Made by a program: the position numbers and the translations under genes. DNA of 64,000 bases from Salisediminibacterium beveridgei (GTDB lineage Bacteria > Bacillota > Bacilli > Bacillales > Salisediminibacteriaceae), in NCBI RefSeq assembly GCF_001721685.1, contig NZ_CP012502.1, positions 124,001-188,000 of the forward strand, written 5' to 3'. Below, in pieces: positions 19,899 to 27,545 of this stretch. Below the pieces are notes generated by a model. That model did not search any database. It was given only the letters and a program-made list of their open reading frames with translations, and had not been told where the DNA came from. Position 1 is the first letter of the stretch. Each line of letters begins with the position of its first letter.

Positions 19899-19933
19899 TA
19901 GTGCGAGAGACAAACACTGATGGAGGTGAGGTT

Positions 19934-20320
19934 ATGCTGAATATTGATATACGAAGCCGCGTCCCGATCTATGAACAGCTGATGAATCAGCTGAAATCGA
20001 TGATCATTCATGAGGTCATTGCCGCCGATGAGCAGCTGCCGTCTGTCCGGAATCTGGCCCAGGAACTGACGATCAATCCGAATACGATACAAAAAGCCTA
20101 TCGTGAACTCGAACGGGAAGGGTACATTTATTCCATACCTGGCCGTGGACGGTTCGTGTCGCCGCAGACCCACCATCAAAATAAGGAGCGGTTGACGATG
20201 CTGACAGAAGAAATCGAGACCATGATTTCGGAATATCTTTATCTCGGAGGCACGAAAGACAACATTCTGGCGATGCTGCACACGAAGGATGAGGCAGATC
20301 AAGGAGGAGAGCAGTCATGA
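19934..20320 (+). CDS. GntR-family regulator, YtrA subfamily
   Basis: A 128-residue regulator. The winged helix (about residues 10-78) has PIYEQLMNQLKSMI, LPSVRNLAQELTINPNTIQK and LEREGYIYSIPGRGRFV. The short C-terminal part of about 50 residues has two helices used for dimerisation, which defines the YtrA type. ATG 19934 follows GGAGGTGAGGTT; the upstream in-frame start has no ribosome site. The stop overlaps the ABC ATPase start (ATGA). YtrA relatives repress adjacent ABC transporter operons and respond to cell-envelope stress in B. subtilis; the same role is likely here. Confidence 0.92.
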   Translation: MLNIDIRSRVPIYEQLMNQLKSMIIHEVIAADEQLPSVRNLAQELTINPNTIQKAYRELEREGYIYSIPGRGRFVSPQTHHQNKERLTMLTEEIETMISEYLYLGGTKDNILAMLHTKDEADQGGEQS

Positions 20321-21222
20321 TTGCAACCGAAAGTATCACCAAAACATTCGGAGACCTGAAGGCCGTCTCAGACGTCAGCCTGAATGTCAAAAAAGGCTCC
20401 ATATACGGCCTCTTAGGATCAAACGGTGCCGGGAAATCCACCTTGCTGAAAATACTTGCGGGGATCTACCGGGCGGATCATGGGGAAGCGATTGTTGACG
20501 GCAAGCCGGTTTTTGAAACACCTGAAACAAAAGGACGGACCCTGTTCATCTCGGATTATCCGTATTTTTTTAATCAGACGAGCCTTGACGATATGGCACG
20601 CTTTTACCGAGGTGTGTATCCACATTGGAATGAAAAGCGCTACACGCAGCTGAGCGCCCATTTCGAGATCGATCAATCCCAAAAACTGAACCGGTTTTCA
20701 AAAGGGATGCAGCGGCTTGCGGCGATGATCCTGACGATTTCCGCCATGCCGGATGTGCTGATCTTGGATGAGCCGTTTGACGGGCTCGATCCCGTCGTCA
20801 GACACCAGATGAAGAATATTCTTCTGCAGGAAGTGGCGGACCGTTCCCTGACGCTCATGGTGTCGTCCCACAACCTCCGGGAGATGGAGGATTTCTGTGA
20901 CTATGTGGGCGTCATGCATCAGGGGGAAATCCTGTTTGAAAAGGATCTCGACGATCTGAAGAGCGATGTGCATAAGATCCAGCTCGCCTTCAAACAAGCA
21001 CCGGGGCATGATGCGCTGACCGATCAACTGGATCTGTTGCACCACGAACAGCGCGGCAGTATGCAGATGCTCATCGTTAAAGGGAATAAAGAAGCGATCA
21101 TTGATCATATCAAGCAGTTTGATCCCGTGATCGTCGATGTGCTGCCGTTGACACTTGAAGAAGTCTTTCACTATGAAATGGGAGGTGCTGGCTATGAAAT
21201 CCGTAACCTCATTATTGAATAA
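20317..21222 (+). CDS. ABC transporter ATP-binding protein (YtrB-like)
   Basis: A 301-residue ATPase. Walker A GSNGAGKST, Q-loop region SDYPYFFNQ, atypical signature FSKGMQRLAAM, Walker B VLILDEPFDGLD, switch VSSHNLREM. A C-terminal domain of about 80 residues follows the catalytic core, as in YtrB and other exporter ATPases. Translation is coupled to the regulator by a 4-nt overlap. The final 29 nt overlap the permease start region. Confidence 0.9.
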   Translation: MIATESITKTFGDLKAVSDVSLNVKKGSIYGLLGSNGAGKSTLLKILAGIYRADHGEAIVDGKPVFETPETKGRTLFISDYPYFFNQTSLDDMARFYRGVYPHWNEKRYTQLSAHFEIDQSQKLNRFSKGMQRLAAMILTISAMPDVLILDEPFDGLDPVVRHQMKNILLQEVADRSLTLMVSSHNLREMEDFCDYVGVMHQGEILFEKDLDDLKSDVHKIQLAFKQAPGHDALTDQLDLLHHEQRGSMQMLIVKGNKEAIIDHIKQFDPVIVDVLPLTLEEVFHYEMGGAGYEIRNLIIE

Positions 21223-23173
21223 ATCCTTGTTTCGGATGCAGCTCTCCACCGTGACGTGGATTGGTTTTTTCCTCACCGTATCATTACTCGTCGTACTCCC
21301 GATCAGCATCCTGACCAGGGAGTTGAGCGCTGCAGGGAATTCATCGGGTGGTCCGGGGCTGTTTTACGGGTCGGAGCTCAATACCCTGATGGCCTTTTCC
21401 TATCCGTTTCAATTGCTGATCATGGCCACTTTCCCGGTGCTGCTTGCCGTGATCCTCATGAACTTCATGACGAAAAAACCGGCGACAGATCTGATGCACA
21501 GTCTGCCGTTTACCCGGGAAAAGATTCTCGGCCATCTGTATACCGTCGGTCTGACGGTGCTCACCGCACCGCTTGTCCTGACAGGTGCGGTTTTGATGAT
21601 CATCAACCCGATGCTCGATGAACGGTTTTACAGTATGGGTGACATCGTTGTCTGGATGCTGTTAACGCTGTTTATGATGCTCCTCATCTTCAGTCTGGCC
21701 ATGTTCACGGGCATTCTCGTCGGCAACAGCCTGCTTCATGGTGTACTGACTTATGTACTGATCTTCGTGCCCGCACTGCTGGTTATCTTAAGTATTGTCA
21801 ATCTGCAGTATTTCATCGTGGGTCTGGCGCAGACCGCCTACATTGAAGCGATTGCCTTGAACGGGATCATCTTTGCCCGCTGGATGGAGATGACCTATGA
21901 TCCCCTGGGCTGGGTGGAATTTCTCGCTCAGGGCGGGGTTGCCCTGCTCCTGATTGGTGCAAGTTTTGTACTCTATAAACGCAGGCAATCTGAAGCAACG
22001 GAAGAGACCCTCGTGTTCCGGGGCGTGCGGCACGTCTTCTTGTATGGCCTGACGTTCTTTTTCATGCTGCTTGCCGGGGTGTATTTTACAGAAGTGCTCC
22101 GTGGCGGCATGGTCTGGACGTATATCGGCTACGCCATAGGGGCCGTCATTTCATATACGTTTTTGCAAATGATCATTCAGAAGGCGCTGCGCCTGCGCTG
22201 GCCTTGGAAAGATTTTGCGGTCTTTGCCGGTGCGGTGATTCTGCTTTTGGTTCCGATTGAGATCGGTTCGTCCTACTACGAACAGCATATCCCGGCAGCA
22301 GAAGATGTCGCCTATGCGCAAATCCACACGCCGAACATGGACATGGGATTCGGCCGCATCCAGGAAGAGCGTCAGGTGACGGATGAGGCGACGATTGAGG
22401 CCATTACGGACCTTCACAGCGATCTGCTCGCTCATGCGCAGACCAATCCGGACTCCTGGCATCGGATTGAACTGACCTATCAGTTGAATAACGGCAATAC
22501 GATTCAACGGGAATATACCGTGACAGAACGGTTCCTGGAAGAGGAGACGTTGGCGTTACGGGAGATGGATGGCTTCAAGCGGACGTATGATCCGGCGTAT
22601 CTGATTGAAGATGTGGACATCACCTATGCGACGGTTCAGGGCAATCTTGGCCATAACATGGACGGGGATCGCATCGCGGATCCTGCGGATTTGAATGCTT
22701 TGATGGATGCAATGAGGCACGATGTGGAACAGCGCCCTGCGCAGGTGTTCATTTCCGAACGGGGCAGTACCATCGGTTCCATCCGGTTTGAAACAGCCGA
22801 CAATGACTCCGTTCATTTCTATCTGACAGCGCAGGATCCGGCGACCATGGCATTTCTCAATGACCAGGGCTTTTATGACGGCCTGCTGGTTCCTGAAAAT
22901 ATTGAGACAATGTACGTCATGGAGTGGCTGGGCGATCATGATTTCTATGACGTGATGAATCGTCTTGAAATGAACGAAGTAGCCCCGGAAGATTTGACCG
23001 ACAACGTGTTGATTGTGGAAGAGGATGAGGAGCAACAGGAACTTCTCGATTATGGCCATGCCTATGAGGAAATGCAGTATGTAGCGATTCTCCGGACGGA
23101 TTACGGCTATACCTTTTATGGGTTTGAATCCTACGAGGTCCCCCAATTTGTCATTGATCACTTTGAAGAATAA
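21194..23173 (+). CDS. ABC transporter permease with large C-terminal extracytoplasmic domain (YtrC/D-like)
   Basis: A 659-residue membrane protein. The N-terminal half has about 8-9 transmembrane helices (residues roughly 20 to 375), with VLLAVILMNFMTKKPATDLMHSLPFTREKILG, shown here only as a family reminder, matching ABC2-type permeases near residue 85. After the last helix (about residue 365) an acidic soluble domain of nearly 290 residues follows, ending in YGYTFYGFESYEVPQFVIDH; this resembles the DUF6449 tail of YtrC-like proteins. ATG 21194 follows GGAGGTGCTGGCT. It may sense or move a cell-wall or membrane component; substrate unknown. Confidence 0.8.
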   Translation: MKSVTSLLNKSLFRMQLSTVTWIGFFLTVSLLVVLPISILTRELSAAGNSSGGPGLFYGSELNTLMAFSYPFQLLIMATFPVLLAVILMNFMTKKPATDLMHSLPFTREKILGHLYTVGLTVLTAPLVLTGAVLMIINPMLDERFYSMGDIVVWMLLTLFMMLLIFSLAMFTGILVGNSLLHGVLTYVLIFVPALLVILSIVNLQYFIVGLAQTAYIEAIALNGIIFARWMEMTYDPLGWVEFLAQGGVALLLIGASFVLYKRRQSEATEETLVFRGVRHVFLYGLTFFFMLLAGVYFTEVLRGGMVWTYIGYAIGAVISYTFLQMIIQKALRLRWPWKDFAVFAGAVILLLVPIEIGSSYYEQHIPAAEDVAYAQIHTPNMDMGFGRIQEERQVTDEATIEAITDLHSDLLAHAQTNPDSWHRIELTYQLNNGNTIQREYTVTERFLEEETLALREMDGFKRTYDPAYLIEDVDITYATVQGNLGHNMDGDRIADPADLNALMDAMRHDVEQRPAQVFISERGSTIGSIRFETADNDSVHFYLTAQDPATMAFLNDQGFYDGLLVPENIETMYVMEWLGDHDFYDVMNRLEMNEVAPEDLTDNVLIVEEDEEQQELLDYGHAYEEMQYVAILRTDYGYTFYGFESYEVPQFVIDHFEE

Positions 23174-23200: not shown

Positions 23201-23240
23201 AAAAATCCGAACCTTCTGTAACAGAGGTTCGGATTTTTTT
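23201..23240. terminator. Bidirectional terminator
   Basis: AAAAATCCGAACCT (23201-23214) pairs perfectly with AGGTTCGGATTTTT (23225-23238), with A and T tails on both sides. It separates the convergent permease and ABC exporter genes. Confidence 0.93.
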
Positions 23241-23244
23241 CGGT

Positions 23245-25374
23245 TCACAGTCTCTTTTCAAGCTGTGCCCGCAGCTCCGGGGCCCGTTTTAAGAGGCTCT
23301 GGAACATTTTCCGCTGCAGGGATAAGAGTACGAGCGGCGTCGCAGCCACGATGGACGCGGTGCGTGGCACGTTTTTCAAGAGGGCGATTTCCCCGAAGAA
23401 GTCCCCGTCACTGAGGCTCGCCACGGTTTTGACTGTGCCGTCATCCATCGTTTTGACGACGTCGGCTTTCCCCCGGACGATCAGGTAAAATTTATCCCCT
23501 TCATCACCTTCTTGAATGACCTGTCCGCCTTCTTGGAAGGTCTCGGTCATAAAGAAATTCGACAGGTCATCGAGCAAGGCTTCCTCCACTTCGGCTAACA
23601 GCGGAATTGCCCGCAGGCGGTTCCCGGACACAAACGCTTCCTGGCCGTCGTCACTGAAATGAAAGCCGCTTTGCTTCGCGTAGAGTGTCTGGTAGTGCCC
23701 TTCTTTTTTCAGGAGATCCTGATGCAGCCCGGTTTCAACGATCTGTCCGCCGTCGAGGACGAAGATCCGGTCCTGATCGAGGGATGTCGTCAAGCGGTGG
23801 GTGATTGATATGACGGTCCGATCTTTCGCCAGGTGGCGGATGACCTCAAGGATTTCCTGCTCCGATGACGGATCCAGTGCGGAGGTGGCTTCATCGAGAA
23901 ATAACAGCGATGGCTGTTTCAAAATCGCCCGGGCAATGGCCACGCGCTGACGCTGGCCACCTGAGAGGTTCCCACCCCGTTCTCCGGCAGCGGTCTCATA
24001 GCCGTCCGGCAACGCTGTTATCACGTCGTGGATCCCCGCAGCTTTTGCGGCTTCTTCCACGTCTTCATCCGTCGCTTCGGGTAACCCGAGGCGGATATTA
24101 TCACGGAGCGAGCGGTTGAACAGGAAAGTCTCCTGGGAGACGATGCCGACTTCGTGTTGAAAGGCGTCATCGTCGATCGAAGGAAACGCCACATCATCCC
24201 AATAGATCGTTCCCTCTGCTGGTTCGTAGTAACGCATGAGCAGATTCATCATCGTGCTCTTCCCGGAACCGCTGGCGCCGACGAACACATTGAACCCCTT
24301 GGCGGGAATGGCCAGGTTGGCATCGCTCAAATGATTCTTCGCGCCGTCATAGCTGAAAGAGACGTGATCAAACCGGATGGCCTGACGTAAGGGGCCGATT
24401 GTCGTTGTGCCATCACTCACCGCTTCCTCCTCCTCGAGCAGTTCATCAATCCGGTCAAGGCCGGATTTGGCCTGAACGAGCTGAGGGGCGAGCCAGGTGA
24501 TGTCAGAAATGAGAAAGCTCATCGTTACCAGAATCGTGACGAAAGCGGACAGGGAACCGATCGTAATCATCTCGTAAAAGGCCAACAAAGAGCCCGCACA
24601 AATGGTGATCACGATGACGAACAGCACCCCGATTTCCGTGGTCCGGTCGAGGAGGTAGTTCAGGAAGTTCGCTTCCCTCGCAGCCGTTTGCAGCTGACGG
24701 ATTTCCTGTTTGAATCCCCGGATCATGCGCGTCTGCAGACCGAAAGCTTTGATGGTTTCCTGCCCCTGAATGTTTTCCTGGGCAGAGGCGTTCACCGCTG
24801 CCTGCAGGTTTTTGTGCGCGCGACTCGCAGTGAATGCCCGGCCGCTCAAGTAGTTGGGGAGGACAAAGCTCAAAGCGAAACCGAAGAGGGCGAGTCCGGC
24901 GAGCTGCCACTGCAAGAGGAAGAGAATGACGATGTTCACAACGAGATTCAAACTCGCCATCACCAACTGCGGAAACGGGATCAATAAGGATTCCAACGCG
25001 GACAGATCGGTATTGTACCGGGCAAGAATATCGCCGGATTTCGTCTTCTTAAAAAAATGCAGCGGCAGGCGCTGCAAGTGACTGAAGATCCGTTGATAGA
25101 AATCCGCCATCAGTCCGGCAATCAAAGTGGCGTAGGCGCGGTCCCTGAAAAGACCGAGTACCGAGGTGACGACCGTTCCCACGGTAATGAAGACAATCAA
25201 TAGAGTGAGTATCCGGAGGTCACCGGGCACGATTGCGTAGTCAATCATCAGCATCAGACTGAGGGGCAAAAAGGCCTGAAAGGCAAGTTCTGCCACAAGA
25301 ATCGCGAATATGATCAACGCCTTGCCTTTTTGTGCCTGAAAAAGCAGCAGAATCCGCTTGATCAGTTCAATCAT
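23245..25374 (-). CDS. ABC exporter (ATPase-permease fusion) with C-terminal cyclic-nucleotide-binding domain
   Basis: A 709-residue half-transporter. Six helices occupy about residues 15-310. The nucleotide-binding domain at about 335-565 has Walker A VGASGSGKST, signature LSGGQRQRVAIARA, Walker B LLFLDEATSALD and switch ITHRL. After it lies a complete cNMP-binding domain (about 585-705) with DEGDKFYLIVRGKADVV and the phosphate-binding cassette FGEIALLKNVPRTAS, whose Gly-Glu and Arg are intact. GGAGG precedes ATG 25374. It is last in a tight four-gene operon with an aminopropyltransferase-like enzyme and an acyltransferase, so it may export their product. The ligand of the regulatory domain is unknown. 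Confidence 0.9.
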   Translation of the reverse strand: MIELIKRILLLFQAQKGKALIIFAILVAELAFQAFLPLSLMLMIDYAIVPGDLRILTLLIVFITVGTVVTSVLGLFRDRAYATLIAGLMADFYQRIFSHLQRLPLHFFKKTKSGDILARYNTDLSALESLLIPFPQLVMASLNLVVNIVILFLLQWQLAGLALFGFALSFVLPNYLSGRAFTASRAHKNLQAAVNASAQENIQGQETIKAFGLQTRMIRGFKQEIRQLQTAAREANFLNYLLDRTTEIGVLFVIVITICAGSLLAFYEMITIGSLSAFVTILVTMSFLISDITWLAPQLVQAKSGLDRIDELLEEEEAVSDGTTTIGPLRQAIRFDHVSFSYDGAKNHLSDANLAIPAKGFNVFVGASGSGKSTMMNLLMRYYEPAEGTIYWDDVAFPSIDDDAFQHEVGIVSQETFLFNRSLRDNIRLGLPEATDEDVEEAAKAAGIHDVITALPDGYETAAGERGGNLSGGQRQRVAIARAILKQPSLLFLDEATSALDPSSEQEILEVIRHLAKDRTVISITHRLTTSLDQDRIFVLDGGQIVETGLHQDLLKKEGHYQTLYAKQSGFHFSDDGQEAFVSGNRLRAIPLLAEVEEALLDDLSNFFMTETFQEGGQVIQEGDEGDKFYLIVRGKADVVKTMDDGTVKTVASLSDGDFFGEIALLKNVPRTASIVAATPLVLLSLQRKMFQSLLKRAPELRAQLEKRL

Positions 25375-25379
25375 GTCAA

Positions 25380-25856
25380 TCAGCCTCCGTCTTCTATTGC
25401 GGGAACATAGATGGGTTCATCACTCAGTGAAAGCCCGGTAAACGTGGAAATGCCTGCGCGTTCCAACGCTTTTCGAAATCCGGGGTGATGGGGCAGATCT
25501 GCGATCAGCGTTTGTTTCAATGCCGTTGCCGCATCGGTGATCCAGCGCTGGGTCCACACCTCGGCGCCGAGTTCTTCATAAAGCGCCAGGCGTTCATCGT
25601 ATTTCTGTTCATTGAACCTGACGGTAAAGGGATCTTCTGCAAAGGTAAGCTGTTTTTGAACCGGTGCTACAATACTCAGCTCGGAGAACGTCCATTTTAA
25701 CTCGACCTCGAACTGTCTTGGAATCAGAAAACTGGTCCCATGGGCGATCACTTCGCCATGATGGACTTCATCGCCGGTGTTGATTTCAACCGGCCAGCGG
25801 ATGGCATGATCGTCAAAAGCGTTCACAAACAGATCATAGAGGATCAGATAGCTCAT
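25380..25856 (-). CDS. Unknown protein in the aminopropyltransferase/exporter operon
   Basis: A 158-residue protein I do not recognise. There is no signal peptide or membrane helix. The first half looks beta-rich (EVHHGEVIAHGTSFLIP, QFEVELKWTFSELSIV). The second half looks helical, with a GFRKALERAGISTFTGL segment that could be a helix-hairpin-like turn. Slightly acidic. The start has GAGGCG upstream; the gene begins 10 nt after the acyltransferase stop and ends 5 nt before the exporter start, so it is certainly part of the same transcript. It could be an accessory factor or another enzyme of the same pathway. Confidence 0.75.
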   Translation of the reverse strand: MSYLILYDLFVNAFDDHAIRWPVEINTGDEVHHGEVIAHGTSFLIPRQFEVELKWTFSELSIVAPVQKQLTFAEDPFTVRFNEQKYDERLALYEELGAEVWTQRWITDAATALKQTLIADLPHHPGFRKALERAGISTFTGLSLSDEPIYVPAIEDGG

Positions 25857-25866
25857 CTTGTTCGCC

Positions 25867-26445
25867 TCACTTTACTATGGATTTTAACCGGAGACCCCGG
25901 CGCATGGATGCATCCATGTCGGCCAGTTCGGATTCGTTTTTCGGAACGTAGCACAGGCATGGCACAAATTCATCATCATTTTCATCGCAGTAAATCGGAT
26001 CGGTCAATGCGGTGACGGGAAGTTTCATGATCCGGTTTAAGAGCCTGAAGAAGGACGGGCGGATCAAACAGAGAAACATGTGCGTTTGCAGTTCGTCCTT
26101 TCCAATCAGCATCAAATCGCGGATCAGGAGAAACAGGTGCTCGTTGCTCCGGTTTTCTTTGGCGATCGACAGTTTATCGAGTTCATAAACCGGGGCGGTC
26201 TGGCGTTTGACTTCAGATTCTTTGTAAAACGGGTAATCCCGTTCAATCAGACTCTCGCCTTCGGGTATGTAGGGAAGGAGTTCGAACGTACCGATCACTT
26301 CCCCTTCATTGTTCGAGATTAAATACTGCAGCCGTCCGCTTCGTTCGAGGTCTTCATAATACCAGTCTTTCCCTTCCCACGCACCCTTTGCAATCGCATA
26401 AAACTGTTGCTGCTCCGTTTTTGTCTGAACCACACGGTACGTCAT
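25867..26445 (-). CDS. GNAT-fold acyltransferase of autoinducer-synthase/FeeM-like type
   Basis: A 192-residue protein. The central region YELDKLSIAKENRSNE followed by HLFLLIRDLMLIGKDELQTH has the arrangement seen in LuxI- and FeeM-like N-acyltransferases: a strand with a conserved Glu, then a charged loop and a helix. The early GAWEGKDWYYEDLE and late PALTDPIYCDENDDE-like portions are unfamiliar. Members acylate amino groups using acyl carriers or CoA. ATG overlaps the stop of the upstream aminopropyltransferase-like gene (ATGA), strong evidence of joint action. Predicted substrate is an amine made by that enzyme (inference). An ordinary GNAT acetyltransferase is the alternative. Confidence 0.6.
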   Translation of the reverse strand: MTYRVVQTKTEQQQFYAIAKGAWEGKDWYYEDLERSGRLQYLISNNEGEVIGTFELLPYIPEGESLIERDYPFYKESEVKRQTAPVYELDKLSIAKENRSNEHLFLLIRDLMLIGKDELQTHMFLCLIRPSFFRLLNRIMKLPVTALTDPIYCDENDDEFVPCLCYVPKNESELADMDASMRRGLRLKSIVK

Positions 26446-27311
26446 GTCCGCTCCCTCATTTTCAGATCATTTCTGACATATTCAGGATGGACAAAGCTCG
26501 CTTCAAGAACTTCCGGGGTCACGTAGCGGTTCTCACCATGCGGTTTGATACCGGTGAGCGTTGCCGGGACTTTTTTCATGCCGATGGTAAAGGAATACAG
26601 GCCACCGTTATAGGTCGGAATCGTTGCGTGATACGTCTTTACCGCCGGGAAAAACAGATCCAGCACTTCGCGGATGTGCTGCAGGTAGAACATGTTAAAC
26701 ACCGGGGAGAGGCTCTGACAGCTCATGATCCCGTCCGGGTTCAGGCGTTTGTGGACGTTCTGATAAAATGGCTGTGAGAACAGTTCCACCGCAGGGCCCA
26801 CCGGATCGGACGAGTCGATAATGACCACATCGTATGTGCGGCTGGCGTTGGCCATATACTTGACTCCGTCCTCATAGTGGACATGAATCTTTGGATCCAG
26901 AGGGCCTTCCCCGGCCACTTCAGGCAAAAAGCGCTGTGCAGCACGAACAACGGCCTCGTCAATTTCGATCATATCCACCCGTTCGACGGAGTCGTATTTG
27001 ACGACTTCATTGGCGACACCCAGGTCACCGCCGCCGATGATCAGGACGTCTTTCGGATCCGGATGAAGAGCAAGTGGCATGTGTGCAATCATTTCATTGT
27101 AAATGAATCCGTCCATGGATGTGGTCTGCAGGATGTGATCAAGGATAAGGCAGGGCCCAAAATCATATGTATCGAGCACCATCAGATGTTGGTAGGGTGT
27201 TTGTTCTTCATGCAGGATCCGCCTGACGCGGTAGTTTAATGAAGCATTGTCGCCTTCTTCGACGAAGTACCACAGTTCGCCGTCTCGTTCCATTATGCTT
27301 TTGGGTAACAT
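26442..27311 (-). CDS. speE: Spermidine synthase-like aminopropyltransferase (divergent)
   Basis: A 289-residue cytoplasmic enzyme of the PABS family that transfers an aminopropyl group from decarboxylated S-adenosylmethionine to an amine. Seen are the N-terminal GELWYFVEEGDNASLNYRV strand region, the nucleotide loop IIGGGDLGVANEV, MIEIDEAVV, catalytic DSSDPVGPA and the late IPTYNGGLYSF. Two positions deviate from classical SpeE: GGGDGG is GGGDLG, and the QGES segment is CQSLSP. Substrate preference may therefore differ. ATG 27311 is chosen because AGGAGG is 8 nt upstream; longer upstream readings lack a site. First gene of the operon, and unlinked to speB here. Confidence 0.85.
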   Translation of the reverse strand: MLPKSIMERDGELWYFVEEGDNASLNYRVRRILHEEQTPYQHLMVLDTYDFGPCLILDHILQTTSMDGFIYNEMIAHMPLALHPDPKDVLIIGGGDLGVANEVVKYDSVERVDMIEIDEAVVRAAQRFLPEVAGEGPLDPKIHVHYEDGVKYMANASRTYDVVIIDSSDPVGPAVELFSQPFYQNVHKRLNPDGIMSCQSLSPVFNMFYLQHIREVLDLFFPAVKTYHATIPTYNGGLYSFTIGMKKVPATLTGIKPHGENRYVTPEVLEASFVHPEYVRNDLKMRERT

Positions 27312-27545
27312 GGCATTTCCTCCTAATGTTGAGAACTGTTTTACATACCTTATCATATTCATCAGATAATTACTCGAAAATACGCATAAAATCGTCAAAA
27401 AAAAAGAAAGGAATTTGGTGAAGGGGGTAGATGTCCGTACCTCTTTCTGATATACTCGTTATAGAGAGGTTAGACATCATGCCCCATATTCTGGAGGGAA
27501 CTTGTTTTGCTAATCCAAGACGCACGACACGAGAGGTGAACCACA

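Follow-up and report, generated by a model that had tools for sequence, protein, structure and literature searches.

A rare four-gene operon of Salisediminibacterium beveridgei joins a divergent aminopropyltransferase, an acyltransferase with a FeeM-like predicted fold, and an exporter with a cyclic nucleotide–sensor-like domain

The four-gene operon and its conservation

We analyzed a 64,000-nucleotide stretch of the Salisediminibacterium beveridgei genome (contig NZ_CP012502.1, positions 124,001 to 188,000; hereafter the window), which harbors an operon of four minus-strand open reading frames (ORFs) at window positions 23245–27311. The operon encodes a divergent aminopropyltransferase of the PABS superfamily, a predicted acyltransferase of the GNAT type, a 158-aa protein, and an ATP-binding cassette (ABC) exporter that ends in a cyclic nucleoside monophosphate (cNMP)–binding domain (Table 1). 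The host genome is a single contig of 3,582,268 bp. According to a preliminary description, made from the letters of the window, the genes overlap once, by 4 nt, and are otherwise separated by 10 and 5 nt; this layout proved exact. The four-gene operon is thus confirmed as real.

We place the start of the PABS gene at an ATG preceded by an AGGAGG ribosome-binding site; in the mechanical ORF list, the gene begins instead at a TTG at 27398. A hairpin follows the last stop codon (−20.2 kcal/mol; z = −5.53; equaled by 0 of 200 shuffles) and is itself followed by a run of T. It was not among the matches of a simple terminator pattern scan of the window. The corresponding promoter scan gave six matches, against a mean of 4.3 in shuffles, and was uninformative.

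Table 1. Features of the operon, in window coordinates.
Feature	Position	Strand	Basis and remarks
AGGAGG ribosome-binding site of the PABS gene	27319..27324	-	Precedes the ATG
PABS/SpeE-like divergent aminopropyltransferase, 289 aa, first gene	26442..27311	-	Pfam and NCBIfam matches, alignment; V17, L201, N235, and Y239 changed, catalytic residues retained
FeeM/LuxI-like GNAT acyltransferase (predicted), 192 aa, 4-nt overlap with the PABS gene	25867..26445	-	Sequence and model
158-aa protein without assigned fold or function	25380..25856	-	ORF; least conserved of the four between host and G033
ABC exporter half-transporter, fused ATPase and C-terminal cNMP-binding domain, 709 aa	23245..25374	-	Pfam
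ABC transmembrane domain PF00664, residues 21-286	24517..25314	-	Pfam
ABC ATPase domain PF00005, residues 349-498	23881..24330	-	Pfam
cNMP-binding domain PF00027, residues 611-697, contains FGEIALLKNVPRTA	23284..23544	-	Pfam
Terminator-like hairpin 3' of the last gene	23201..23238	-	Folding versus shuffles

The operon is rare and co-conserved. A second species of the same genus (genome G033; 3,592,487 bp) carries the four genes in identical order, with spacings of −11, +10, and +5 nt; none of the reading frames is interrupted by a stop. Amino acid identity between the two species is 0.78 for the PABS protein, 0.66 for the GNAT protein, 0.46 for the 158-aa protein, and 0.72 for the ABC exporter. 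Third codon positions are the most changed in all four genes. They account for over half of the base substitutions in the PABS, GNAT, and ABC genes and just under half in the 158-aa gene (0.34, 0.37, and 0.62 by codon position), where the pattern is least clear.

Other genomes of the order seldom carry these genes. The 158-aa profile matched in 2 of 397 order genomes, and the GNAT profile in 41; two of the GNAT matches were close (>360 bits) and the next best scored 73. Close matches to both proteins occur in 2 of the 397. In a phylum sample, the GNAT profile matched at E ≤ 1e-5 in 2 of 398 genomes, the host included. A third genome of the genus (G032) yielded no GNAT gene, 158-aa gene, second PABS gene, or strong cNMP-exporter tail. 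The stretch from the iron-sulfur gene to speE in G032 and G003 yielded no operon gene; the sole match there was the canonical speE.

A search of 5.8 billion clustered proteins, which relies on shared 5-residue words, returned at least eight GNAT relatives and, for the 158-aa protein, at least two, itself included. These counts are lower bounds, since the 158-aa search missed the 46%-identical homolog of G033. Metagenome contigs of equal size pair a GNAT with a PABS relative (P0007 and P0015; 20,269) and a GNAT with a 158-aa relative (P0002 and P0010; 17,218), from which we infer that each pair is linked on one contig. A search for the block across the order, as the preliminary description had proposed, therefore bears out its co-conservation, rare though it is (2/397), with the metagenome contigs adding inferred linkage. 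One close GNAT relative (P0008) is labeled as coming from a Pseudomonadota metagenome-assembled genome, perhaps through transfer or misbinning. A viral contig scan and two scans of genome-contig collections found no relatives, although near-host records are perhaps omitted from those collections; the pattern of one genome-contig scan does match the window itself. A plasmid search found one distant GNAT and no relative of the 158-aa protein.

Adjoining genes at window positions 19901–23173 encode a GntR-like regulator, an ABC ATPase, and permease-like proteins (named by eye). G033 has them along with the operon; the corresponding region of G032 and G003 lacks them.

The aminopropyltransferase and the acyltransferase

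The operon PABS protein has both SpeE Pfam domains (PF01564 family) and is separate from the canonical speE of the host, which lies about 27 kb from the operon (C1:122785-123321) beside an ORF resembling speB (named by eye). The host also carries speD (C1:1787728). The host can thus supply decarboxylated S-adenosylmethionine (AdoMet) as donor and has no need of a second PABS enzyme for spermidine.

We aligned 148 PABS sequences: 7 of the operon clade (window, G033, and P0013–P0017) and 141 others. The latter are not a random sample, since they consist of 113 listed relatives (P0018–P0130) and 28 sequences from family genomes, where 2 of 30 PABS loci (L031 and L042) yielded no ORF by the rule used. 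The five metagenomic clade members were chosen by identity (57 to 63%) from the best 120 of 1391 PABS matches, and their monophyly was found afterward.

All seven clade members retain the catalytic and decarboxylated AdoMet–site residues D96, E116, D166, D169, Y71, Y234, and Q199. At three other positions, the clade departs without exception from all 141 comparison sequences: position 17 is V or C (E or D in the others), position 235 is N or A (P in the others), and position 239 is Y (W in the others). A fourth, position 201, is L in the seven; in our residue table, which covers the C-type and G-type sequences (132 rows), the 102 C-type enzymes have Q, E, or H there and the 30 G-type enzymes have D or Q. 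Conserved putrescine-pocket residues of the spermidine synthase family are therefore changed in this clade.

In a midpoint-rooted tree of the 7 clade members, 40 of the 102 C-type, and all 30 G-type sequences (62 C-type and 9 L-type sequences were left out), the operon clade has support of 1.0 and a long stem. It falls among C-type (GGGDCG) enzymes, apart from the host’s own speE; the support for its nearest grouping is 0.549. The listed relatives P0018–P0130 form a large GGGDCG group, mostly with YNEM motifs (102 of the 141 compared), unlike the GGGDGG type of the canonical host speE.

By our own mapping, the changed positions would be equivalent to putrescine-site residues of solved enzymes. 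We tentatively equate position 17 with Plasmodium Glu46, from residue spacing and the human sequence. In an alignment with solved enzymes, position 201 corresponds to a glutamate in the Kluyveromyces enzyme, and position 17 to one in the Bacillus enzyme. Published structures place Tyr237, Pro238, and Ile242 in or at the putrescine site of Trypanosoma spermidine synthase (PMC5532286), and Glu46, Tyr102, and Asp199 in or at that of the Plasmodium enzyme (PMC4342090, PMC4356361). In the human enzyme, Glu208 is reported to swing toward the pocket upon ligand binding (PMC12812037). Because conserved pocket positions are altered while the catalytic residues are kept, the operon PABS probably has a changed amine acceptor.

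The 192-aa protein was modeled from 9 close sequences with a mean predicted local distance difference test (pLDDT) score of 83.9. In Foldseek, the closest structure to this model was FeeM (PDB 2g0b; E = 3.9e-6), followed by TofI and BjaI, with SpeG forms and other acetyltransferases next. In a second structural comparison, FeeM came second (Z = 15.1 over 164 residues) to the acetyltransferase 5jph, and acyl-homoserine lactone (AHL) synthases scored Z = 13.1 to 14.6 over 160 to 172 residues, with other acetyltransferases interspersed. The alignments of FeeM, LasI, RpaI, and BjaI with the model span 164 to 172 residues. Many SpeG entries also appear in the second comparison; FeeM and the AHL synthases align over about 20 more residues than they do. 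The predicted GNAT fold is of the FeeM type. The FeeM Pfam family gives a weak match in 6 of the 9 close members at E ≤ 1 and, at E ≤ 0.01, in 11 of 31 members of a wider set (best E = 1.7e-5). The sequence alone retrieved nothing useful from among solved structures.

Membership of the LuxI family was considered and rejected: a published LuxI residue list includes the arginines R70 and R104 (PMC5539150), and the 192-aa protein has E55 and K91 at the corresponding positions in a by-eye motif alignment. TIGR03694, the PEP-CTERM/exosortase acyltransferase family, did not match the 192-aa protein; 6 of the 31 wider-set members reached E ≤ 0.1 (best 3.7e-4). Going by the model, the protein appears to resemble a FeeM/LuxI-type acyltransferase in fold and not by the sequence criteria of either family.

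Distant relatives of the acyltransferase occur in other Bacillales. We looked at 24 of their loci, about half of those found by the order-wide profile. A GGDEF-EAL protein adjoins the FeeM-like GNAT gene in 10 of them (L015, L016, L084, L085, L086, L087, L089, L090, L092, and L098), and a Wzz-like gene does so in 3; domains in these neighborhoods were verified on one protein. A link of the FeeM-like acyltransferase family to cyclic di-GMP and polysaccharide is possible.

The 158-aa protein has no Pfam or NCBIfam match, and a search against PDB sequences gave nothing below E = 0.36. The structure check that had been proposed for it did produce an AlphaFold2 model, from two sequences, but no reliable fold (pLDDT 63.8; best Foldseek E = 0.22).

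The exporter and a candidate cyclase partner

The 709-aa exporter matches ABC_membrane, ABC_tran, and cNMP_binding, all above the Pfam cut-offs. Within the last of these domains, FGEIALLKNVPRTA resembles the phosphate-binding cassette of cyclic-nucleotide receptors.

The host encodes a paralogous exporter with a C-terminal cNMP domain, followed by a class III cyclase with a CHASE2 domain and by a FecR/fibronectin-repeat protein of 1684 aa (L126:993-10439; host C1 ~2837.0–2846.4 kb). Cyclase and paralogous exporter lie within about 3 kb of each other in both the host and G033. Among 35 family genomes, a class III cyclase occurs in two, as do strong cNMP-exporter tails (E ≤ 1e-15). In both cases, the two genomes are the host and G033, the carriers of the operon. 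Two further genomes (G183 and G083) have a cyclase and a cNMP-domain match no more than about 2 kb apart. It is plausible that the CHASE2 class III cyclase is the partner of the operon exporter’s cNMP domain.

Proposed function, alternatives, and known systems

Because a PABS enzyme with an altered pocket, an autoinducer-synthase-like acyltransferase, the 158-aa protein, and an exporter are joined in one operon, the production and secretion of a fatty amine is probable. We tentatively propose that the operon makes and secretes an N-acylated aminopropyl-amine, similar to a lipopolyamine, under cyclic-nucleotide control, and put the likelihood of this just short of even. The preliminary description had read the operon in a similar way, and our results support that reading in part. 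Host SpeD would provide decarboxylated AdoMet, from which the divergent PABS enzyme would move the aminopropyl group onto an acceptor that is not free putrescine and that may carry an acyl group, or no charge, at its distal end. An acyl chain, taken from acyl–acyl carrier protein (ACP) or acyl-CoA, would be attached by the FeeM/LuxI-like GNAT enzyme to an amino group of either the substrate or the product, and the two steps might occur in either order. The 158-aa protein may assist as a carrier, adaptor, or third enzyme. A homodimer of the ABC half-transporter would then carry the product out of the cell, and a cyclic nucleotide made by the CHASE2 class III cyclase would gate this transport by way of the C-terminal cNMP domain. 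We regard as rather doubtful the bolder version, in which a PABS enzyme for an acylated or far-end-uncharged amine and a FeeM-like enzyme yield a new lipopolyamine class whose export is opened by cyclic AMP (cAMP) or cyclic GMP from that cyclase.

Several observations weigh against the lipopolyamine proposal. The operon PABS protein scores above the spermidine synthase cut-offs (TIGR00417, 270.0 versus 249.55 bits; NF002010, 294.5 versus 260 bits). The gene context of its clade was read for 2 of the 7 members (window and G033) and inferred for P0015; P0013, P0014, P0016, and P0017 were counted without gene context. SpeG structures appear in Foldseek from place 8 (E from 1.3e-5), and FeeM is only about threefold better. 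In the wider GNAT set, Acetyltransf_1 is found in 10 of the 31 members, and its best E (2.4e-7) surpasses that of FeeM. The FeeM Pfam family (PF21926) scores 12.6 bits on the 192-aa protein, below its 27-bit cut-off. The preliminary description had asked whether this protein would model as a plain acetyltransferase. It does not clearly do so, given the Foldseek ranking, yet the acetyltransferase 5jph has the highest score of the second comparison (Z = 16.2 over 138 residues). Against solved structures, the wider GNAT profile listed neither FeeM nor AHL synthases, and its best match was a GCN5 histone acetyltransferase (E = 0.038). None of the operon’s four genes encodes an ACP. For the proposed gating, the co-occurrence of cyclase and operon may be one event, because both genomes are species of one genus. 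A cyclase is present in 34 of the 397 order genomes and the operon genes in only two; therefore, the cyclase does not predict the operon. Furthermore, the cNMP-type domain of the ABC exporter HetC is reported to bind guanosine tetraphosphate (ppGpp), and cAMP gave no significant protection (PMC10986499).

The cut-off scores, the SpeG matches in both structural comparisons, and the Acetyltransf_1 matches favor an alternative in which the operon serves polyamine homeostasis or detoxification: the PABS enzyme would make ordinary spermidine or a homolog, the GNAT enzyme would acetylate it as SpeG does, and a cyclic nucleotide would trigger ABC efflux of the acetylated polyamine. We consider this unlikely, given the canonical speE elsewhere in the host, the change in all seven clade members of pocket positions that are invariant or nearly so in the 141 others, and the narrow lead and longer alignments of FeeM and the AHL synthases over SpeG.

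The two enzymes might instead act on an unrelated amine, such as an amino acid, an amino sugar, or an osmolyte precursor, to give a metallophore or cell-envelope component that is delivered by the exporter. Loss of acidic or polar pocket residues does not by itself specify the acceptor, and Wzz-like genes adjoin 3 of the 24 distant GNAT loci. However, the four proteins have no metal-uptake, glycosyltransferase, or ligase domain, and D169 is kept; its equivalent in solved enzymes is reported to anchor the far amine of putrescine (PMC10146546, PMC4356361). We assign this alternative a low probability.

The fold match to AHL synthases could also be read to mean that the GNAT enzyme makes a true quorum-sensing autoinducer for this Gram-positive host, its external level set by the exporter. 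This is highly improbable, with two listed LuxI arginines replaced in the by-eye alignment and none of the four genes encoding a receptor or regulator. That the genes are coincidental or decaying neighbors without a joint pathway is already disfavored and scarcely credible: only 2 of 397 genomes carry them, but order, spacing, and open frames persist at identities down to 46 to 78%, and the equal-size contigs pair GNAT with PABS (P0007 and P0015) and GNAT with 158-aa (P0002 and P0010) genes.

If the lipopolyamine proposal is true, a Gram-positive bacterium would secrete a fatty polyamine through a cyclic nucleotide–gated exporter, which would be a case of a nucleotide second messenger controlling small-molecule export. 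The PABS superfamily would then reach a non-putrescine or acylated acceptor, and FeeM/LuxI-like chemistry would occur in a Bacillaceae operon that has its own exporter.

Bacterial fatty amines have a precedent in the palmitoylputrescine and N-acyl amino acids obtained from environmental DNA. To our knowledge, neither an aminopropyltransferase nor a cNMP-exporter belongs to the palmitoylputrescine system. Our literature search, drawn largely from outside subscription journals, found nothing that combines an aminopropyltransferase, an acyltransferase, an operon, an ABC transporter, and cyclic nucleotide binding. Among the matches listed for FeeM, acylated polyamines, spermidine synthase in biosynthetic clusters, and aminopropyltransferase paralogs, the gene set was absent, and a search aimed at the organism listed nothing on it.

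The operon PABS shares with SpeE (PF01564/TIGR00417) both Pfam domains and the decarboxylated AdoMet–site and catalytic residues. It differs, as does its whole seven-sequence clade, at positions 17, 201, 235, and 239, and it is set in an operon and distinct from the host speE. FeeM (PF21926; PDB 2g0b) ranks first in Foldseek for the 192-aa model, with the weak Pfam matches in close members described above. The 192-aa protein itself differs in falling below the Pfam cut-off, in having no ACP gene in its operon, and in being partnered by a PABS enzyme. LuxI-type AHL synthases (TofI, LasI, and BjaI) are like the 192-aa protein in fold and length, and its GT.ELLPY...ELDK recalls their G..RLLPT...E..R. 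They differ in the residues that E55 and K91 replace here, and no LuxR-type gene is among the four.

For the exporter, the comparison is with HetC. HetC is reported to have an N-terminal cNMP-type domain that binds ppGpp, together with a C39 peptidase (PMC10986499); the operon exporter carries its domain at the C terminus, and no C39 peptidase is among its Pfam matches. An exporter more similar to HetC occurs in genome G157 (L128:7370-10456): a 1028-aa ABC exporter with a C39 peptidase and two stretches of cNMP domain, the better-matching of which precedes the peptidase. HetC and the operon exporter have in common that an ABC exporter and a cNMP-type domain form one protein, and in HetC that domain is reported to be needed for function (PMC10986499).

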